64,000 nt of DNA from Roseovarius sp. MMSF_3359 (GTDB lineage Bacteria; Pseudomonadota; Alphaproteobacteria; Rhodobacterales; Rhodobacteraceae), in contig NZ_JASHJC010000002.1 in NCBI RefSeq assembly GCF_030733385.1, forward strand, positions 1 to 64,000, in the 5' to 3' direction. Made by a program: the position numbers and the translations under genes. This document shows, piece after piece, positions 6,082 through 26,956 of the stretch; the stretch's first letter is position 1, and each line of letters opens with the position of its first letter. A model generated the notes under the pieces. It was not told the origin of the DNA, did not search any database, and worked only from the letters and a program-made list of their open reading frames with translations.

Positions 6082-8040
6082 ATGCCTAAGCAACTGATTT
6101 TATGCGACTGTTCCGGCAGTCAGGAAATTGACAAGGACGCGTTGGAGGCGACGACGGGCCTGCCCTGCTCCAAAGTGCATTCCGGGCTTTGCACGCATCA
6201 GCTTGACGCGACACAGGCGGCAATCGCCACCGGTGACGCCATCATTTGCTGCCAACAGGAAACCCGAATTTTCCAGGAAATCGCGGACGAGCTGGAGGTG
6301 CCTGAGCCCCCTTTCGTCGACCTCCGCGACCGGGCCGGATGGTCGGCGGATGCGGCGCCAAAACTGCCCAAAATGGCCGCACTCCTCGCCGAGGCGACGC
6401 TGGCCGATCCCGGCGAGAAGACGGTAGATGTGGTATCCGAGGGCCTCTGCCTGATCATCGGCAAGAGCGATGTGGCGCTACCCGCCGCCGAAAAGCTTTG
6501 CGATGTACTGAGCGTGACCGTTCTGCTGACCGATGCCTCGGATCCGCCCGCGAGCCGGTCATTCGATGTCATCAGTGGCCGGATCAGGCACGCGACCGGC
6601 GCGCTTGGTCAGTTCGAACTGACCGTTGATGCCCTGCGCCAGGTTGATCCGAAAGGCCGCGGTGAGCTCGGCTGGGATGCGCCGCGCGACGGCGGGCGGA
6701 CCGGCTGCGATATCATCCTTGATCTGACCGGCGACACACCGCTTTTCCCCGCGCCGGAGAAACGCGAAGGCTACCTGCGTGCCGATCCCGGCAGCCTGCC
6801 CGCCGTGGCCGATGCCATCCTGACCGCCAGCCAGCTTGTCGGTACATTCGAAAAGCCGCTCTACGTCGCGCTGGAGCCGCTCATCTGCGCCCATTCCCGC
6901 GCCGAACAGACCGGCTGCGACCGCTGCCTCAATGTCTGCCCGACCGGCGCGATTTCGCCTGATGGCGACCATGTGGCGATTGACCCGATGGTCTGCGCCG
7001 GGTGCGGTTCCTGCGCGGCGCTCTGCCCCTCCGGCGCGATCACCTATGATGCACCCGCCCCCGACCTGATGTTCCGGCGTATCGCGACCCTGGCCAGCAC
7101 CTATCTAAAGGCGGGCGGGACTGCGCCGCGCCTGCTGGTGCATGATGCCACCCATGGCGCCGAGATGATCCGCCTGGCCGCGCGTTTCGGTCGGGGCTTG
7201 CCTGCGGATGTCATCCCGCTTGAGGTATCCGCGCTTGCGGGTTTCGGCCATGCGGAGATGCTGGCCGCGCTGGCATCGGGTTTCTCGGAGGTCTCCATCC
7301 TGCTGTCGCCCACGACGGAACGGGACGCGCTCGACCACGAGGTGCCGCTGGCCCGCGCCATAGGCGGCGAGGACCGCATCAACGTCCTGGATTTCTCGGA
7401 CCCGGACATGCTTTGCGACACGCTCTATGAAATGCCAACCTCGCCCGGACAGCAAACCGACCCGATCCTGCCAATGGGCAACCGTCGGCAGGTCGCCCGG
7501 CTTGCGGCCAAATCGCTGCGCCCGGATACCGGGTCCCTGCCCCTGCCCGATGGTGCGCCCTATGGCGCCGTCTTGGTCGATACGGATGCCTGCACCCTCT
7601 GCCTGAGCTGTGTGTCGCTCTGCCCATCGGGCGCACTGAACGACAACCCCGACATGCCGCAGCTTCTGTTCCAGGAGGATGCCTGCCTGCAATGCGGCCT
7701 TTGCGCCAATATCTGCCCAGAGGACGCGATCGCCTATGAACCGCGGCTGAACCTGACCGATGCCGCGCTGACACAAACGGTCCTCAACGAGGAAGAGCCT
7801 TTTGCCTGCATCGAATGCGGGGCGCTTTTCGGTGTGAAATCCACTGTCGAGAAAATCGTCGAAAAGCTGGCCGGGAAACATTCCATGTTCGCCACGACCG
7901 AAACCGCGAAGATGATCCAGATGTGCGATAACTGCCGCGTCGATGCGCAGTTTCATTCGGAAAACAACCCGTTCGAAGGCGGGCAGCGCCCCAAGACACG
8001 CACGACCGAAGATTACTTCAGTAAGCGCCGGGATCACTGA
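6082..8040 (+). CDS. Multi-cluster 4Fe-4S ferredoxin-type protein of the fdh locus
   Basis: This 652-residue cytoplasmic protein has two pairs of ferredoxin motifs: CDRCLNVCP and CAGCGSCAALCP near residues 278-320, then CTLCLSCVSLCP and CLQCGLCANICP near 503-555. Further cysteines occur at the N-terminus (CDCSG, CTHQ, CCQQ) and in the C-terminal CIECG and CDNCR. The architecture fits 4Fe-4S proteins encoded divergently from fdh3 operons. The ATG at 6082 was chosen because the conserved MPKQLILCDC start is there; the frame opens earlier at 5968 without support. It ends 7 bp inside the convergent cytochrome c gene. A role in electron transfer or cluster supply is inference. Confidence 0.85.
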   Translation: MPKQLILCDCSGSQEIDKDALEATTGLPCSKVHSGLCTHQLDATQAAIATGDAIICCQQETRIFQEIADELEVPEPPFVDLRDRAGWSADAAPKLPKMAALLAEATLADPGEKTVDVVSEGLCLIIGKSDVALPAAEKLCDVLSVTVLLTDASDPPASRSFDVISGRIRHATGALGQFELTVDALRQVDPKGRGELGWDAPRDGGRTGCDIILDLTGDTPLFPAPEKREGYLRADPGSLPAVADAILTASQLVGTFEKPLYVALEPLICAHSRAEQTGCDRCLNVCPTGAISPDGDHVAIDPMVCAGCGSCAALCPSGAITYDAPAPDLMFRRIATLASTYLKAGGTAPRLLVHDATHGAEMIRLAARFGRGLPADVIPLEVSALAGFGHAEMLAALASGFSEVSILLSPTTERDALDHEVPLARAIGGEDRINVLDFSDPDMLCDTLYEMPTSPGQQTDPILPMGNRRQVARLAAKSLRPDTGSLPLPDGAPYGAVLVDTDACTLCLSCVSLCPSGALNDNPDMPQLLFQEDACLQCGLCANICPEDAIAYEPRLNLTDAALTQTVLNEEEPFACIECGALFGVKSTVEKIVEKLAGKHSMFATTETAKMIQMCDNCRVDAQFHSENNPFEGGQRPKTRTTEDYFSKRRDH

Positions 8041-8774
8041 TGTTTGATCGGCGCGCCCAGATTGGCCGGCTCGAGCCGGCTCACATAGGCCATGATGGCG
8101 TCGAGATCATCAAGCGTCATCTCGACCGGGGCGATGGGAGACGGGCGGTTGATCGGAAACGGCTCGGTCACATCCTCGATCTGCGTGAAGGCGGGATGGG
8201 GGTTGAGGGCAAAGAAAGCGCGAAACCTGTTGTCCCAATCCCGCAAGCTGCGCAGGACGTGAAAAGAGGGCGTCGAACCGATGGCGTTCATCCGGTTGTC
8301 TGCACTGACCACGTGGCAACGGCCGCAATGGAGGCTCGACAGTTTCAGCCCTTCGGCCGCGTCACCGTCATAGGTCTCGACCGTGGCCACGGCCTCCGCA
8401 ACCTCGGGCAGGGTGAAGGGCTGTGCGCCATCCACCTCAAAGCTCGTCAGCGTCCGATGCCCGACCTCCGAGGTCAGCCAATCGGCAAACCGCGCGGCAC
8501 CGGGATGATCCGCCGCCACCGTCATATGCCAGGTCGCCCCGGCGCCGGTAAAAACCGCGACGCCATCGCCATCGGGCGCAAGCGTCACCTCTGCGGCCCC
8601 ATCGACCAGTTCCACGCGGATCTGGGTCTTGAGCGAGAACCGTGGCAGCAGGTGTTTCAACAGCCCGCTTTCGATCAGCGTTTCGGGCGCGCTGAGGCGG
8701 AAATCCCGCTCGCCCGCGGCCACCAGATGGGGCACCGAGGCCAGCGCGACGATGAGAGAGAGCAAAATTCGCAT
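8034..8774 (-). CDS. Secreted cytochrome c with TupA-like N-terminal half
   Basis: This 246-residue protein has a Sec signal peptide (about residues 1-20). Residues roughly 25-120 resemble the start and end of tungstate-binding TupA-like periplasmic proteins: 'E.LIESGLLKHLLPRFSLKTQIRV' and 'HPGAARFADWLTSEVG'. A c-type heme site, CGRCH, follows near residue 145, with a distal methionine probably in the C-terminal 'MAYVSRL' segment. The binding-protein part is far shorter than a normal one of about 250 residues. It is convergent with the ferredoxin-like gene and divergent from the DUF6494 gene. Periplasmic electron transfer linked to formate dehydrogenase is inferred from position. The heme site is seen directly; the TupA likeness is my pattern judgement. 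Confidence 0.78.
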   Translation of the reverse strand: MRILLSLIVALASVPHLVAAGERDFRLSAPETLIESGLLKHLLPRFSLKTQIRVELVDGAAEVTLAPDGDGVAVFTGAGATWHMTVAADHPGAARFADWLTSEVGHRTLTSFEVDGAQPFTLPEVAEAVATVETYDGDAAEGLKLSSLHCGRCHVVSADNRMNAIGSTPSFHVLRSLRDWDNRFRAFFALNPHPAFTQIEDVTEPFPINRPSPIAPVEMTLDDLDAIMAYVSRLEPANLGAPIKHQ

Positions 8775-19195: not shown

Positions 19196-19831
19196 ATGGG
19201 CAATTTAGCGTCGATAGGTATTTTGTTTGTTGCATTGCTGATCGCGCCGGTATCGCCGGCGAAGGCTGATTACGCGCAGATGACCCTGTTCCAGTTGCTC
19301 ACCAGGGCAGAAATCGTCGTGTCTGGTACGGTCCAGGAGGTGTCTGACGATACCTATGAGCTGGATGTCGTTCAGGCATTCCGCAATGCCGGTTCCCAAG
19401 ACATATTGACGGTCGAACGAGTCGATTTGCTTCGGCTTGGCGATCGTTGGGCGGATTACGCGCGCGGGCAGCAGGTGGTGCTCTTTGCCCAAGTTTCCGA
19501 TACCGAAAGCGCCACCGTGGCCCCCCTCGGGGCCGCGGGAGAAGGCGAATTGCCGGTGGTGGCGCAGATGGTCCATCCCACGGCGCTATCGCGTCCACCG
19601 GCGGATATGACCCGCGCCACCTATCTGGGTGGATCAAGGGCCTACTACCGGGTCGAGGCCGACACGTTCCAGGATGCCATCGCTGGTTTCTTCGATTGCT
19701 ATCGACCCACGGACCGGGGGCGGATCGCCCGCCTTTGTGACGACTTGGCTTTGCAGGACTATCGCCAGCTTTCCTGGCTGGCAGCCCATATTTCAGGCAT
19801 CGCCGACAGACTACCAGAAGGAGAGAACTGA
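19196..19831 (+). CDS. Secreted protein of unknown function
   Basis: This 211-residue protein has a Sec signal peptide ending near residue 24 (SPAKADY). The mature part begins 'LFQLLTRAEIVVSGTV', then beta-rich segments and 'RWADYARGQQVVLFAQV'. This resembles small beta-barrel (OB-like) proteins in which a 'sensitive to fast degradation' cargo is absent; I do not recognise the family. The only cysteines are a late pair ('FFDCY', 'ARLCDD') that could form a disulfide. It precedes the large metzincin-like gene by 30 nt, so the two are probably co-transcribed. Confidence 0.72.
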   Translation: MGNLASIGILFVALLIAPVSPAKADYAQMTLFQLLTRAEIVVSGTVQEVSDDTYELDVVQAFRNAGSQDILTVERVDLLRLGDRWADYARGQQVVLFAQVSDTESATVAPLGAAGEGELPVVAQMVHPTALSRPPADMTRATYLGGSRAYYRVEADTFQDAIAGFFDCYRPTDRGRIARLCDDLALQDYRQLSWLAAHISGIADRLPEGEN

Positions 19832-19861: not shown

Positions 19862-22471
19862 ATGATACTCTTAAATCGAATTTTTATATATATTTTTCAA
19901 ATATTTGCGATCCTTTTCCTGACAGTTTCGGGGGTCACGATAAGTCACGCCGCCACCGTGGATTGCCAGGCGGATCGCTCCGGAGATGGGTTGGTGCTCT
20001 ATCTCTACTTTCCCACCTCACAGGACACGGATTTTCCATCTCCGATGTTTGAGGAGGTGGTGACGCCGCTGGAACCTTTCGATGCGGCGGACCTTGATCC
20101 CGCCCTTGGCAGCACCGCAGAATACCGCGATGCGATCACGGAGCGGGTCAAGACAGATTACTGCGAATTTGACGTGCGCGTCGTGCAAACCACCAGCGCC
20201 AACGGCACCACGAACCCGACACCCACGGACGATAGCTGGTTCGTCGTCGGCATTGGCAGCGATACCGGCACCGGGTTCTACGGGGTCTGCTGCAATAGCG
20301 GCATGGCGCGTGTCTGGGCCGGCGAGTTCGAAGACAACTCGCAGCCGGGTGGCTCCTTCGACGGGCTGCTGACACCCGGTGACGGGACCCTGAACCGATG
20401 GGCCAATGCCATCGCGGGGACGACCTCGCACGAACCCGGCCACAGCTCGCGACTGGGCAATCCTGGTCACGCTTCCGCGGATCCGCGCCCCACCGAGGAC
20501 GCGCGGCAGAACCATATCATGGCAACCCCCTCGGGGGCGGACAGGATCGAGGACCGGCATTTCAGCGACACGAGTTATGAGGCGATTGCCGGGGCGGTCG
20601 GGCTATACGAACAGACACTCAGCAACTGGGATTTCATCAACCCGAACATCTCCGCCGCGGACGGCCTGCGGATCACCGTGCTGGTCGATGATGACGACAC
20701 GCCTGAAATCGGGTCGGTTTATGATGGTGGCCTGAGCCCCTGGGGCGATGCGGATATCGCGGCGAACGGTTCCCTGACTTTCCAGGGCACGACCTATGAC
20801 CGCTATCAGATCACGTTCACCGATCCGCAGAACTGGAACAATGGTGACGTGGGCGAGATCCCCGAAGGTGCCGAATTTCACGTCGGTGTCGGCCTCACGA
20901 CAAACTACATCGTGAACGATGTCATGCTTCTGTCGGGCGGCAGTGCGATGGAGTTGCATCCGCGCGTGGTGGGCTACACGCCCGACGGCTCGTTCAACCC
21001 CGAGACCGGGGATTACCACCTGACCCTGTCGGTGCCTGATCCCGAGAACGGCCCCCTGATCGTATCCGATGTGCGGATCCGCCACCTGCCGCGCACACTG
21101 GCCATCAACGAGATGATCACCGGTGGTGCAATGATCGGTGTCGACGGGCGCAGCATCGTGCCCTGGCAGGAGCGCGATGGCGCCAATGTCGAAGTCGGCA
21201 GCGCCGAGGAATTGCCGGTGGCCAACCTGGCAGAGCCACGCGCGCTCGATACTTTCCGTCAGGCCGAGCCCGATTGCGGCTCCCTCCCCGCGCCACAGCC
21301 GATCCCGGATCATCCGTTCCTTCACGTGCACTACTGCGAAGAAGGCCCGGTTCTGGGGCTCTTCCCCTCGGCGCGGGTCTATGTCGAGGCGACCGTGACC
21401 GACCCGAATGCGCGCTATTTCGACCGCGATACCGGCACCATGGTCACCGGCCCGCTGTCGAACCGGATCTTTATCCAGTTCACCGGCAAGATCCCGGATC
21501 TGAACGGCAATGGCGTGGATGACGCGATCGACATCGACACCGGCACCTGTTCTGACGACAATGGCAACGGTGTGTGCGACGAGGCTGAACCGACGCGGTA
21601 CAAATACGCGGCCAAGCTGGTCTGCGGTCATCAACCGCTGCCCAGTGACGGCAGGCTGGTCAAGGGCCACTATGCGACAACGATCAACGTGCTCAACCTC
21701 GGCGATCGGAAAGCCAAGCTGACCAAGACCTTGTCGCTGACCTACCCACCGGAAGAGCAGCGCCCCGGCAGGGTGGCCGAGATTGCAACCGACATACTGG
21801 GGCCGAATGAGGCGCTCAAGGTCGATTGCGCCGATGTCGAGCGGCGGGTGTTCCCGAACGGGCTGCCCGCGTCGTATATCGAAGGCTACGTGACCATCGA
21901 AAGCGCCTCGCGGCTTGACGTGACCGGTGTCTACACCAGCCGTGATGTCGAGGAGGCACCGCCTTGCGAGCAGCATGGTGGCGGGTGTGGCGATCACATG
22001 TGTGGCCAACCGCGCAAATGCTGTGGCGGTGGTGGATGCCCCGGTGCACCGGCCCTGTCGACCACGCTTGAGATCGAACAGATCCGCGAGCATGTCATCG
22101 AAGCCAAGAAACCACCGGTCGAGATGTGCCCCGACCTCAGGGTGCGCGATATTGGTGAGCCGGACGTGAACTGCCCCGAGGGCAGTGGAAGCTGCGTCAC
22201 GCGAACCGATTACACGATCGAGAACATCGGCAACGCCGCAAGCGGGCCGTTTTCCACCCGCGCAATCCTCGATCCGCAGCAATCGGTCTCGGTTCCCGCG
22301 ATGCTGGAATCGCTGTTGCCTGGGCAATCCGTGACCGTGCCGGTCACCACGCCCAGAGGAGGGAATTGCTACGATCCCGATTGCACCATCACCGTCGCGG
22401 CGGACAACCTCGACGAGGTCAAGGAGTGTAACGAGCGCAATAACATCGCGGAGGAAACAACCCCTGGCTGA
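19862..22471 (+). CDS. Secreted metzincin-like protein with CARDB domain
   Basis: This 869-residue exported protein has a very AT-rich, Ile/Phe-rich signal peptide. A zinc-protease signature, HEPGH, lies at residues 190-194, with a further His203 and a Met-turn-like 'HIMA' (Met220). The spacing to His203 is longer than in the standard HExxHxxGxxH motif. 'DLNGNGVDD' and 'DDNGNGVCDE' near 546-576 look like calcium-binding thrombospondin-type-3/dockerin repeats. A cysteine-rich patch lies at 700-725, and a CARDB-like domain closes the protein (about 755-865). AGAGGA supports the ATG at 19862; a TTG at 19841 is the alternative. Protease activity is not certain. A strong terminator follows. Confidence 0.75.
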   Translation: MILLNRIFIYIFQIFAILFLTVSGVTISHAATVDCQADRSGDGLVLYLYFPTSQDTDFPSPMFEEVVTPLEPFDAADLDPALGSTAEYRDAITERVKTDYCEFDVRVVQTTSANGTTNPTPTDDSWFVVGIGSDTGTGFYGVCCNSGMARVWAGEFEDNSQPGGSFDGLLTPGDGTLNRWANAIAGTTSHEPGHSSRLGNPGHASADPRPTEDARQNHIMATPSGADRIEDRHFSDTSYEAIAGAVGLYEQTLSNWDFINPNISAADGLRITVLVDDDDTPEIGSVYDGGLSPWGDADIAANGSLTFQGTTYDRYQITFTDPQNWNNGDVGEIPEGAEFHVGVGLTTNYIVNDVMLLSGGSAMELHPRVVGYTPDGSFNPETGDYHLTLSVPDPENGPLIVSDVRIRHLPRTLAINEMITGGAMIGVDGRSIVPWQERDGANVEVGSAEELPVANLAEPRALDTFRQAEPDCGSLPAPQPIPDHPFLHVHYCEEGPVLGLFPSARVYVEATVTDPNARYFDRDTGTMVTGPLSNRIFIQFTGKIPDLNGNGVDDAIDIDTGTCSDDNGNGVCDEAEPTRYKYAAKLVCGHQPLPSDGRLVKGHYATTINVLNLGDRKAKLTKTLSLTYPPEEQRPGRVAEIATDILGPNEALKVDCADVERRVFPNGLPASYIEGYVTIESASRLDVTGVYTSRDVEEAPPCEQHGGGCGDHMCGQPRKCCGGGGCPGAPALSTTLEIEQIREHVIEAKKPPVEMCPDLRVRDIGEPDVNCPEGSGSCVTRTDYTIENIGNAASGPFSTRAILDPQQSVSVPAMLESLLPGQSVTVPVTTPRGGNCYDPDCTITVAADNLDEVKECNERNNIAEETTPG

Positions 22472-22649: not shown

Positions 22650-25061
22650 ATGTTACTCCGTGTTTTTTTGTTCTGTGCACTCGTTGTTCTGGTCCCGTTT
22701 TCCGCGTCGGCGCAGCTTTTTTCGGGACCAAAGGATGAAGCGCAACTGGTCGGCCGTGATGAGGCCAGCTTTCCCCCGGCAGACGAAGATTACTTTGCCG
22801 AATTGGACAATGGCGTCGCGCTCAGCCCCGATGAAATCAAGGGCCGGAACATGTGGATGGTCTGGACCGGCGGCAATGACCTTCTGTGGGATACGCTGAC
22901 CAACGACACGTTCGGACAGTTCGATCTGCTCAAAACCTTGTCGTCCCACCCGAGCCTTCCCGCGCAGCGCAGCAACCGGTTCGAACAACTGGGCCTAATC
23001 AACGAACCCTGCTTTGACGAGGCGACCGGCCCAGTCGAGGATCGCCATGGGCTTTGGCTCGATATCCGGCGGGACGATTGCGCCCCGGACCCCTTTGCCA
23101 ATGCCGAGAAATACCCCGGTGTCGAGATCGGCGCGCGGGGCCGCAACATGCCGGTCTGGTCGTACTATGGTGAGCCCACCGGCGTGCTTGGCCTGCGCCT
23201 CTTCCCGAACCCCGAGTTTGACCGGCGTGCGGAGCGCCGCTGGGATCCAGTACGTTACTACACCGACCCCGATTACTACAATGACGACGATCTCGTGCGA
23301 CCCTACCGCGTTGGCATGTCCTGCGCGTTCTGCCATGTGGGTCCAAGCCCGATTGACCCGCCGGAAGACCCCGAAAACCCGGCGATGCATAATCTCAATG
23401 CCACTGTCGGGGCGCAATATTTCTGGTTTGACCGGGTCTTTGCCTGGCAGCCGGATGATCGCCAATACATGGTGCAATTGATCCACACCGCACGGCCCGG
23501 GACCATCGACACCTCGCTGGTCTCACCCGATTACATCAACAACCCGCGCACGATGAATGCGATCTACCTGCTCGAAGAACGCCTGGCCGTCGCACGGCGC
23601 TTTGGCGAGGAACGGCTCCGCGGGGGCGAGCGCGACAACAAGCAGTTCCAGGACTATATCGGAGAGGGTCCGCTGACCGAGTTTTTCGAAGAACCAGACC
23701 TCAGCTTCTCTCCCCGCGTTCTCAAGGATGGCGCGGATTCCGTCGGTGCGCTTGGGGCGCTCAATCGCGTCTATCTGAATATCGGGCTCTTCAGCGAGGA
23801 ATGGACCCGCCATTTCAACCCGATCGTGGGCGGCAAGGACATCACGCCGATCAAGATCGAAACCGCGCAGAAAAACTCGGCCTATTGGCGCGCGACCGAG
23901 GATCAGACCCCCTTGACCGCGCTCTACTTCCTCAAGGCCGGACGACCCGATCTGCTCAAGGATGCACCGGGCGGAGAAGCGCATCTGACCGAGGATGACG
24001 CGACCGTGGACCGGGGCAAAGAGGTCTTCGCGGAGAATTGCGCCGGGTGCCATTCATCGAAACTGCCCGAAAGTGCGTATGAGGCGATGCCTGGCGGGTG
24101 CTCCGGGCCGAATTACATGGCCTGTTTCCAGAACTATCGCGATCTGGTGAAAACCGATGCTTTCAAGGCCGAAATGCTCGACATCGTGAAGGCGGATGAT
24201 TTCCTAGACGGAAATTACCTGTCGAATGAATTGCGCATCCCGGTGACCCTGCTTGAGACAAACGCCTGCAGCCCGCTCGCCACCAACGCGATTGCGGGCA
24301 ACATCTGGGACAACTTCTCATCGTCGAGCTACAAGGCCCTGCCCTCGGTCGGTACGATCAAGGTGCATCACCCGAAAACCGGCGAGGAATATGATTACGA
24401 GATGCCTGCAGGCGGACGTGGCTATACCCGCGTCCCGTCGCTCATCAGCCTCTGGTCCACCGCGCCGTACCTTCTGAACAATACGGTCGGTTACTATAAT
24501 CAGGATCCGTCGGTCGAAGGCCGGATGGCCGGGTTTGAGGATGGCATTGAAAAGATGCTCTGGCCTGAAAAACGGCTCAAAGATCCGGTTCTGGGTGACA
24601 AGGTGCCCGGGCTGATCGACCGGACGACCGAGCAGAGTTATCTGATTATCCCGAAAGGGTTCCAGCCCGAGGTGCTTGTCAAGCTGCTGTCACCGTTGCG
24701 GGATGATCTGCCCTGGCTCTTCAATCTCGATGGCGATATCGAGCTTGGGCCGATCCCCGCCGGGACACCGATCGGATTGCTGGCCAACCTCAACCTGCGG
24801 CTCGATCAGGCGGATGTGCTGGAGCGGCTTGCTCATGATCTCGAACTGGTCAAGCTGATCGTCCGGATCAAGCGTGACCTCAAGGAATTGCCCGAAAACG
24901 CGAGCGACGAACAGGCCCGCGCGATCTTTGCCGATCTGGTGGAGCCACTGCTCGAGCTGAGCAAATGCCCCGACTACGTGGTCAATCGCGGGCACTACTT
25001 CGGCACCAAACTCGAGGACGCGGATAAACGCGCGCTGATCGCCTTTCTCAAGCATTTCTGA
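22650..25061 (+). CDS. Secreted diheme c-type cytochrome, RoxA/peroxidase-like
   Basis: This 803-residue protein has a Sec signal peptide ending near residue 23 (ASAQ). Two c-type heme sites are visible: C225-AFC-H229 and C464-AGC-H468. Large size and the roughly 240-residue gap between hemes fit the rubber oxygenase (RoxA)/diheme cytochrome c peroxidase superfamily better than small cytochromes. Aromatic-rich segments near 'MPVWSYYG' and 'YFWFDRVFAW' fill the space between. GAGGAG lies 7 nt before the ATG. It is the first gene of a six-gene operon. Whether it is a dioxygenase, a peroxidase or an electron acceptor for the GMC enzyme cannot be told from sequence. Confidence 0.82.
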   Translation: MLLRVFLFCALVVLVPFSASAQLFSGPKDEAQLVGRDEASFPPADEDYFAELDNGVALSPDEIKGRNMWMVWTGGNDLLWDTLTNDTFGQFDLLKTLSSHPSLPAQRSNRFEQLGLINEPCFDEATGPVEDRHGLWLDIRRDDCAPDPFANAEKYPGVEIGARGRNMPVWSYYGEPTGVLGLRLFPNPEFDRRAERRWDPVRYYTDPDYYNDDDLVRPYRVGMSCAFCHVGPSPIDPPEDPENPAMHNLNATVGAQYFWFDRVFAWQPDDRQYMVQLIHTARPGTIDTSLVSPDYINNPRTMNAIYLLEERLAVARRFGEERLRGGERDNKQFQDYIGEGPLTEFFEEPDLSFSPRVLKDGADSVGALGALNRVYLNIGLFSEEWTRHFNPIVGGKDITPIKIETAQKNSAYWRATEDQTPLTALYFLKAGRPDLLKDAPGGEAHLTEDDATVDRGKEVFAENCAGCHSSKLPESAYEAMPGGCSGPNYMACFQNYRDLVKTDAFKAEMLDIVKADDFLDGNYLSNELRIPVTLLETNACSPLATNAIAGNIWDNFSSSSYKALPSVGTIKVHHPKTGEEYDYEMPAGGRGYTRVPSLISLWSTAPYLLNNTVGYYNQDPSVEGRMAGFEDGIEKMLWPEKRLKDPVLGDKVPGLIDRTTEQSYLIIPKGFQPEVLVKLLSPLRDDLPWLFNLDGDIELGPIPAGTPIGLLANLNLRLDQADVLERLAHDLELVKLIVRIKRDLKELPENASDEQARAIFADLVEPLLELSKCPDYVVNRGHYFGTKLEDADKRALIAFLKHF

Positions 25062-25069
25062 GGGGCCGG

Positions 25070-26956
25070 ATGGTGACGCCCACCTATGACTACATCGTCG
25101 TCGGCTCCGGGGCCGGCGGCGGCACCCTTGCCGCACGGCTGGCCGAAGAGGGGATGCGTGTCCTGCTCCTGGAGGCCGGGGGCGATCCGCGTTCCCTCAA
25201 AGGCGGTGTGCGCGACATGGACGAGAGCGAAAACCGCCTGCCGGATGATTACGACGTTCCTGCCTTCCACCCTTTCGCCTCCGAGAATGCGGCGCTCCGG
25301 TGGGATTTCCACGTCAGCCACTACACGGACTCCGAGGTGCAGGCCCGCGATCCCAAGGCCGGCCCCGAGGGTGTGCTCTATCCGCGGGCCGGGACATTGG
25401 GCGGCTGCACCGCGCATAACGCGATGATCTTCGTCTATCCGCATCACGACGATTGGCAGCATATCGCGGATCTGACCGGCGATGATGGCTGGGCGCCCAA
25501 GGCGATGCACAGCGTCTTTCAGAAGCTGGAAAACTGCCACCACCGGCCGCTGCAACGCACCTTGAACGCCATCGGCATCGACCGAACCGGGCACGGGTTC
25601 GATGGCTGGCTCAGGACCGAAAAGGCCATTCCGCGCGCGGCGCTCCGGGACGACGACATCATGGAGGTCGTGCGCAAATCCCTGCGCGAGCAGATCGGGG
25701 CCGGCGGCGATTTTCTTAGGCGGCTGCGGTGGTTTGCCAATAGCGCCGCCGACCCGAATGACCGCGACCGGATCGACGATGACGCGGACGGGATTGTCTA
25801 CACACCGCTGACCACGCGAGATGGTGTTCGTGTCGGGTCGCGCGAAAGGGTTCTCGATGTGTCGGGGCGTTTTCCCGACCGGCTGACCGTCGAGTTGGAC
25901 GCGCTGGCGACAAAGGTTCTGCTCGACGCGGACAACCGCGCCTACGGCATCGAATACCTCAAAGGCGCGCGCCTCTATCGCGCCCATGCGGCGCCCAACA
26001 CCGCACCCGGTGAACGGCAGGAGGCCCATGCCGCGCGCGAGGTCATACTGGCCGGTGGGGCCTTCAACACGCCGCAGCTTCTGATGCTCTCGGGGATCGG
26101 TGATCCGGCCGAACTGACGCCCCACGGGATCACGCCCAAGGTGACCTTGCCCGGGGTGGGCCGGTCCTTGCAGGACCGCTACGAGGTGGCTGTGGTCAAC
26201 CGGATGAATTTCGACGCCTGGGAAAGCATGACCGAGTGCCGGTACGAGGTCGGCGATCCGCTCTGGCAGCAGTGGAAACGGGACGGCGACGGGCTTTATG
26301 CCACCAACGGCGCGGCATTGGCCGTCATTCGGCGTTCGTCATCCACGCAGCCTGTGCCGGACCTCTTCTGCATGGCGCTTCTGGGCAAGTTCAGTGGGTA
26401 TTTCCCCGGTTATGCCGCCGATCTGGCCCAGAGCCGCAATCACCTGAGCTGGGCCATCCTCAAGGCGCATACGCTCAACCGCGCGGGACAGGTGCGCCTG
26501 GCGTCAGCCGATCCACGCGACCGCCCGATCATTGATTTCAACTACTTCGCCGAAGGCGGCGACGCGGACCTTGCCGCCGTGGTCGAAGGTGTCAAATTCG
26601 TCCGAAAGCTCTGCAAACCGTTACACGAACGCGGACGCATCGCCGCCGAAGAAATCCCCGGCCCCGAGATACAGACCGACGAAGAGATCGCGCAATTCGT
26701 GCGCGACAATTGCTGGGGCCACCACGCCTCCTGCTCCTGTCCCATCGGGCCGGTGGATCAAGGCGGCGTTCTGGACAGCAGGCTGCGGATCCACGGCACC
26801 GCGGGCTTGCGGATCGCCGACGCTTCGGTTTTCCCGAAAATCCCCGGATTTTTCATCGCATCCGCCGTCTACATGATCGGCGAAAAGGCCGCCGATATGG
26901 TGCTGCAGGATGCGCAGTCTCAACCACAAAATGAGGGCAAATTATATGGCACATAG
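25070..26956 (+). CDS. GMC family FAD-dependent oxidoreductase
   Basis: This 628-residue flavoenzyme has the N-terminal dinucleotide motif 'VVGSGAGGGTLAARL', the second signature 'LAGGAFNTPQLLMLSGIG', and the C-terminal catalytic region 'GHHASCSCPIG' with the active-site His near residue 550. GMC enzymes oxidise alcohols, sterols or sugars. It begins 8 nt after the diheme cytochrome gene and overlaps the next gene by 11 nt. No signal peptide is present, so a cytoplasmic location is likely. The substrate is unknown; a hydrophobic alcohol is plausible from the heme enzymes encoded alongside. Confidence 0.92.
   Translation: MVTPTYDYIVVGSGAGGGTLAARLAEEGMRVLLLEAGGDPRSLKGGVRDMDESENRLPDDYDVPAFHPFASENAALRWDFHVSHYTDSEVQARDPKAGPEGVLYPRAGTLGGCTAHNAMIFVYPHHDDWQHIADLTGDDGWAPKAMHSVFQKLENCHHRPLQRTLNAIGIDRTGHGFDGWLRTEKAIPRAALRDDDIMEVVRKSLREQIGAGGDFLRRLRWFANSAADPNDRDRIDDDADGIVYTPLTTRDGVRVGSRERVLDVSGRFPDRLTVELDALATKVLLDADNRAYGIEYLKGARLYRAHAAPNTAPGERQEAHAAREVILAGGAFNTPQLLMLSGIGDPAELTPHGITPKVTLPGVGRSLQDRYEVAVVNRMNFDAWESMTECRYEVGDPLWQQWKRDGDGLYATNGAALAVIRRSSSTQPVPDLFCMALLGKFSGYFPGYAADLAQSRNHLSWAILKAHTLNRAGQVRLASADPRDRPIIDFNYFAEGGDADLAAVVEGVKFVRKLCKPLHERGRIAAEEIPGPEIQTDEEIAQFVRDNCWGHHASCSCPIGPVDQGGVLDSRLRIHGTAGLRIADASVFPKIPGFFIASAVYMIGEKAADMVLQDAQSQPQNEGKLYGT

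Follow-up and report, generated by a model that had tools for sequence, protein, structure and literature searches.

Metzincins that depart from the strict signature HExxHxxG/NxxH/D (as worded in PMC12237041) have previously been described. According to that paper, the igalysins (M64; T. ramosa IgAse) carry HExxHxxxGxxD, and an active-site helix longer by half a turn takes up the extra residue. In leishmanolysin (M8), 62 extra residues lie between the glycine and the third His, and the geometry of the site is undisturbed (PMC5572447). Both are described there as off-signature members of the metzincins (PMC12237041, PMC5572447). For a protease/partner pair, the nearest precedent comes from Listeria monocytogenes, where, according to PMC8235301, adjacent genes encode an exported metzincin, Mtz, and a TIMP-like protein, Tim. 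In these phage-linked loci mtz stands first, Tim is a lipoprotein, and Mtz cleaves Tim (PMC8235301).

The present study concerns a 64,000-nucleotide stretch of DNA from Roseovarius sp. MMSF_3359 (the window), in which a pair of genes, on balance, probably encodes an exported metzincin that is a novel spacing variant and is controlled by a TIMP-like partner. The pair and its parts are as follows.

19196..19831, + strand: partner gene, 211 aa, signal peptide followed by a mature chain predicted to start D-Y; predicted NTR/TIMP-like OB fold (adjacency in related loci and AlphaFold2 model)
19862..22471, + strand: metzincin-like protein, 869 aa (open reading frame and alignment with relatives)
19862..19951, + strand: putative signal peptide, residues 1 to ~30, ending ...SHA (by eye)
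19961..20656, + strand: probable metzincin catalytic domain, residues 34-265 (13-sequence alignment A2 and predicted fold matching MMP catalytic domains)
20429..20470, + strand: zinc motif H190-E191-P-G-H194-x8-H203, HEPGHSSRLGNPGH (H190, E191, H194, and H203 invariant in 13/13)
20510..20521, + strand: Met-turn-like N217-H218-I-M220 (H218 invariant; M220 is Met in 11/13)
20645..21505, + strand: all-beta middle region, residues 262-548, without a family match (AlphaFold2 block)
21497..21589, + strand: two EF-hand-like calcium loops, DLNGNGVDDAID and DDNGNGVCDEAE (by eye)
21965..22039, + strand: cysteine-rich patch, residues 702-726 (sequence)
22196..22450, + strand: CARDB domain, residues 779-863 (Pfam PF07705, E 6.2e-10)

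The protease gene is an open frame of 869 codons plus a stop, present in one copy in its 4.5 Mb genome. Its ATG at 19862 is preceded by an AGAGGA-type ribosome site; the mechanically called frame begins earlier, at TTG 19841. Translation gave HEPGH at 190-194, H203, Met220, and the HExxH-x8-H spacing exactly as an earlier note on this DNA had claimed. The further parts named in that note were also found: its calcium-type repeats are the two EF-hand-like loops (D546-D557 and D565-E576), its cysteine-rich patch lies in the interval listed above, and its CARDB domain is the sole PF07705 match in the genome. Beyond CARDB, the window protein had no match by sequence in Pfam, NCBIfam, or PDB; no peptidase family was matched, and Peptidase_M66 (PF10462) was absent at E <= 1. 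A PDB sequence search with the middle region gave no convincing relative. Rows for TEM beta-lactamase in PDB (E 0.018-0.42) were taken as chance. Further downstream, a di-haem cytochrome c peroxidase-like protein, below its family cut-off, is encoded at 22650-25061, and a GMC oxidoreductase gene (25070-26956) starts 8 bases after it; this second pair was not conserved beside the protease in the other loci compared.

A scan of genome contigs yielded 12 related loci, L002-L013. Eight of them, L002-L009, are alpha- or gammaproteobacterial; seven of these encode full long forms, and L009 is truncated. The other four, L010-L013, encode shorter or differently ended relatives, L011 being from Bacteroidota. 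Counterparts of H190, E191, H194, and H203 were invariant in all 13 rows of the alignment, as were E212, D213, H218, and R232-H-F-S235. When the protein was shuffled 20,000 times, HExxHx8H appeared in seven of the products, three of which also had a Met 10-30 residues on; these counts and the conservation in relatives rule out a chance motif. Zinc could alternatively be held by HExxH and a residue other than H203, either H218, which lies two residues before Met220, or E212/D213, a reading to which the invariance of all three in 13/13 lends some support. However, they are equally invariant in the eight relatives in which the standard third His is in place, and therefore need another role there, and H203 is itself invariant; we regard this arrangement as very improbable.

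The standard form HExxHxxGxxH is found in 8 of the 12 relatives (L004, L006, L007, L008, L010, L011, L012, and L013). The window protein and L002, L003, L005, and L009, all roseobacter sequences, have HEPGHSxxLGNPGH. Compared with the standard form, this displaced form has three extra residues, laid out as HExxH-xxxx-G-xxx-H, that is, two before the turn glycine and one after it, with Gly at H194+5 and the third His at H194+9. The igalysins likewise have additional sequence ahead of the turn glycine, although there it is one extra residue with Asp as third ligand, and the third ligand position here is His; the igalysin motif HExxHxxxGxxD is not found in the window protein. In leishmanolysin, a eukaryotic surface protease, the insertion has 62 residues against three here. 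A sequencing or frame artefact is ruled out, the insertion being common to five separate records with low dN/dS. L004 and L006, both of standard zinc spacing, have Leu in place of the Met-turn Met.

In a tree of the catalytic domain, from which 43 of 278 columns had been dropped (the 14 of the motif, together with sparsely filled columns), the five displaced sequences formed one branch (99/99) with L004 as its sister (99/99); several other inner branches were weak. The displaced His is explained by one change on this tree. Since the sister of this single, well-supported branch has standard spacing, the x8 form goes back to one insertion, derived within a metzincin. The suggestion in the earlier note of a new metzincin variant thus holds for a spacing variant of five sequences and single origin, while spacing variants as such had already been published.

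The glycine in the HxxG position of the turn is kept in all eight standard relatives and is R, I, or T in all five displaced sequences. This replacement would suit a pseudoprotease, in which the insertion displaces the third ligand, zinc is lost or weakly held, and the CARDB domain and calcium loops let the molecule function in binding or as a surface protein. The lack of any peptidase family match to the window protein points the same way, as does the zinc site of the predicted model, which is ill-defined.

The relatives do match peptidase families. Reprolysin_5 was matched in 8 of the 13 members (best E 1.4e-5) and Peptidase_M66 also in 8 of the 13 (best E 2.4e-5), L007 lying over the Pfam cut-off for M66 (20.9 vs 20.6 bits). 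Peptidase_M66 (StcE/TagA-like, PF10462) and the reprolysin-like PF13688 and PF13574 are matched by relatives with standard spacing, whereas the window protein matches neither M66 nor the reprolysin-like models, has its third His at x8, and differs in domain make-up (CARDB). None of the 13 family members matched NCBIfam, and the profile of A2 had only weak matches in PDB (best E 0.19, ADAM8).

AlphaFold2, run on residues 34-548 with 12 sequences, gave a protease model with mean pLDDT 69.5 and pTM 0.65. Its pLDDT was mostly 80-95 up to about model residue 420 and low at 426-470; it fell below 50 at model residues 168-200, which span the third His to the Met-turn. In VIA-align, each of the best 50 rows was the catalytic domain of an MMP (Z 8.2-9.1, over 129-142 aligned residues), values to be read with the caveat that a Z of 7-8 may arise without kinship and that absence from the VIA listing does not speak against a family. 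Owing to this caveat, kinship was rested on the agreement of these rows with the motif and with the relatives' Pfam matches. Foldseek returned nothing at E <= 0.001 for the protease model; its top two rows (9.9e-3 and 1.1e-2) were Pseudomonas alkaline protease, a serralysin and itself a metzincin. The predicted order is strand, helix, strands, a long helix to H194, and a C-terminal helix after the Met-turn. This is the order well established for metzincins and described for them in PMC12237041.

Set against the features of the clan, the window protein has HExxH with the catalytic Glu (H190/E191/H194), a Met-turn in the NHIM motif with M220, judged from the primary structure, and a modelled catalytic-domain fold of the metzincin kind, in which the lower half of the domain is unreliable. 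The strict signature, in the wording of PMC12237041, is not found in it. On its residues, it is therefore best filed as a metzincin homolog with an off-signature site, and not as a signature-bearing member. We consider the window protein a probable metzincin-like zinc protease. The zinc-protease claim of the earlier note is borne out as far as metzincin kinship goes, by the relatives' standard motif, their Reprolysin and M66 matches, and the predicted fold; for H203, zinc binding is what the precedents of igalysins and leishmanolysin would lead one to expect, by analogy.

The zinc site is under strong purifying selection. Over residues 180-240, dN/dS of the window gene was 0.024 against L003, 0.050 against L002, 0.049 against L005, and 0.087 against L009, and across the catalytic domain the same four comparisons gave 0.04-0.10, figures that are rough, many dS values being above 1. 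In the C-terminal third dN/dS was higher, 0.105-0.172, in the three of the four comparisons where it was measurable. Against L004, of standard spacing, it was 0.20-0.23, and dS had reached saturation over the site. In a pseudoprotease, one would expect the inactive site to have drifted at E191, whereas dN/dS at the site is 0.02-0.09, all five displaced sequences retain H190, E191, H194, H203, H218, and M220, and the partner gene is likewise retained. Purifying selection by itself may be compatible with a pseudoenzyme. Nevertheless, the retention of every catalytic residue weakens that reading, and we consider it unlikely.

In Sedimentitalea nanhaiensis (L009:6001-7017 and 7074-8240), the L009 protease gene ends after residue 341, and the remainder is absent from the locus; L009 was left out of A3 and of the structure alignment for being a truncated copy. 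Behind the shortened gene lies an IS21-type transposase-like frame, recognised by eye, and the partner gene there is intact. This protease copy has probably been broken by insertion.

We return to our main reading, an exported metzincin. In this proposal, the window pair would be a two-gene unit whose second gene encodes an exported multidomain protease with a catalytic domain of the metzincin type, a middle region rich in beta structure, calcium-binding loops, and CARDB. The proposed zinc ligands are H190, H194, and H203; E191 would serve as the general base, and M220 would belong to the Met-turn. The roseobacter three-residue insertion would lengthen the link to the third His, and H203 could be returned to the same place if the active-site helix or loop is somewhat extended and GNPG makes the turn. 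The modelled active-site helix stops at the second His, and the proposed longer helix was not seen in the model. The first gene would encode a small exported NTR/TIMP-like protein whose most likely role is to bind the protease and restrain it until release. Proteolysis by the window protein and inhibition by its partner are, like zinc binding by H203, what we infer.

The conserved partner gene, which was absent from the earlier note, is the larger clue to function. It lies upstream, ending 30 bases before the protease start. Predicted promoters and terminators were at chance level around the pair, so joint transcription rests on the 30-base gap. Members of the partner family adjoin the protease gene in 10 of the 12 related loci: directly upstream in L002-L009 (26-66% identical) and, by hmmsearch, directly downstream in L011 (Bacteroidota, E 1.7e-26) and L012 (E 1.2e-13). 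None was found near L010 or L013. Among 292 genomes of the order, the partner and protease profiles both found the same two genomes, G000 and G1031, and no others.

By sequence, the partner matched no Pfam NTR/TIMP model and no solved structure; two Pfam rows, with one partner member each (E 0.015 and 0.078), were taken as chance. Its AlphaFold2 model had pLDDT 83.0 and pTM 0.83. The idea of an NTR/TIMP fold was recorded before the fold search, in which the top VIA row was agrin NtA (Z 10.0, rmsd 2.7, 106 residues aligned), further rows being the PCOLCE1 NTR domain (8.4), the complement C3 C-terminal domain (8.0), and TIMP-1 (7.7). The NTR rows align 104-116 residues, in contrast to 71-74 for the OB folds of CusF and PriB. 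In Foldseek no row reached E 0.001 for this model, the top one being an RNA-binding protein of the exosome with an OB fold of general type, and no row from the viral fold library was named as NTR or TIMP (best E 0.012). The partner fold is thus predicted to be an NTR/TIMP-like OB fold.

TIMPs carry an N-terminal Cys-x-Cys, of which the N-terminal Cys chelates the MMP zinc. In the partner, this Cys-x-Cys is missing. By the -3/-1 rule, applied by eye, signal cleavage would fall before Asp-Tyr in 9 of 9 sequences, which gives each a predicted mature chain beginning D-Y. L012 and L011 retain the Asp as well, the former one residue in and the latter behind a long N-terminal extension. Hypothetically, Asp1 of the partner would chelate zinc in place of TIMP Cys1. 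A fuller likeness to the MMP/TIMP couple, with the partner Asp-Tyr chelating zinc and the roseobacter site rebuilt around the shifted His such that both activity and inhibitor control were kept, seems to us distinctly unlikely. Both predicted folds are alike to those of MMPs with TIMPs (MMP catalytic domain; NTR/TIMP class), but there is no sequence match, no CxC, and no recognisable MMP prodomain, and kinship is not claimed.

The partner could also be a chaperone, a secretion partner, or a substrate, which would leave the protease half of our proposal as it stands. NTR folds occur in non-inhibiting proteins as well (agrin, complement), the TIMP N-terminal Cys is missing here, and the Listeria metzincin cleaves its TIMP-like protein (PMC8235301). 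Against this, a TIMP-like domain beside a metzincin best fits an inhibitor, by analogy, and the position of the partner gene ahead of the protease in 8 of 10 loci suits a protective role. As none of these points is decisive, we hold a non-inhibiting partner to be quite possible, if not the expected outcome, and retain the inhibitor as our reading. The likeness to Mtz/Tim is drawn from the published description. Unlike in Listeria, the partner comes first in most loci, as just counted, the hosts are marine proteobacteria and Bacteroidota, and no relative was found in the viral contigs searched.

The protease family is rare and patchily distributed. Full-length relatives among 295 genomes of the family were confined to the window's own, three others matching other parts. 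The catalytic-domain profile was matched in 2 of 292 genomes of the order (G000 and G1031), in 4 of 398 genomes of the phylum (two strongly, two weakly and distantly), and in 4 of 369 genomes in a gammaproteobacterial class, one of them strongly. The nine other same-genus genomes among those listed were without the family, 72,556 plasmid records gave no match, and 19 pattern matches in viral contigs included no relative. More distant proteins of metzincin-like type are encoded at two gammaproteobacterial loci, L020 and L021; they read HELGHNLGLRH and ...DHTMASG, so that a His is again two residues before the Met-turn Met. In L011 and L012, a hydrophobic segment and a basic tail take the place of CARDB, which suggests that these proteins may be membrane-anchored.

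A literature search for spellings of the x8 motif found no printed mention within its reach, beyond which most subscription papers lie. Other metzincin spacing variants, igalysins and leishmanolysins, are already in print, and in comparison with them the x8 spacing appears new. The signature HExxHxxGxxH/D is used to recognise metzincins, and the three added residues make sequence scans miss this member. Its close relatives with standard spacing provide a natural before/after pair for the slack that the zinc site tolerates. Furthermore, the linked NTR/TIMP-like gene would widen the TIMP-like control of metzincins in bacteria beyond the single Listeria case found in print.
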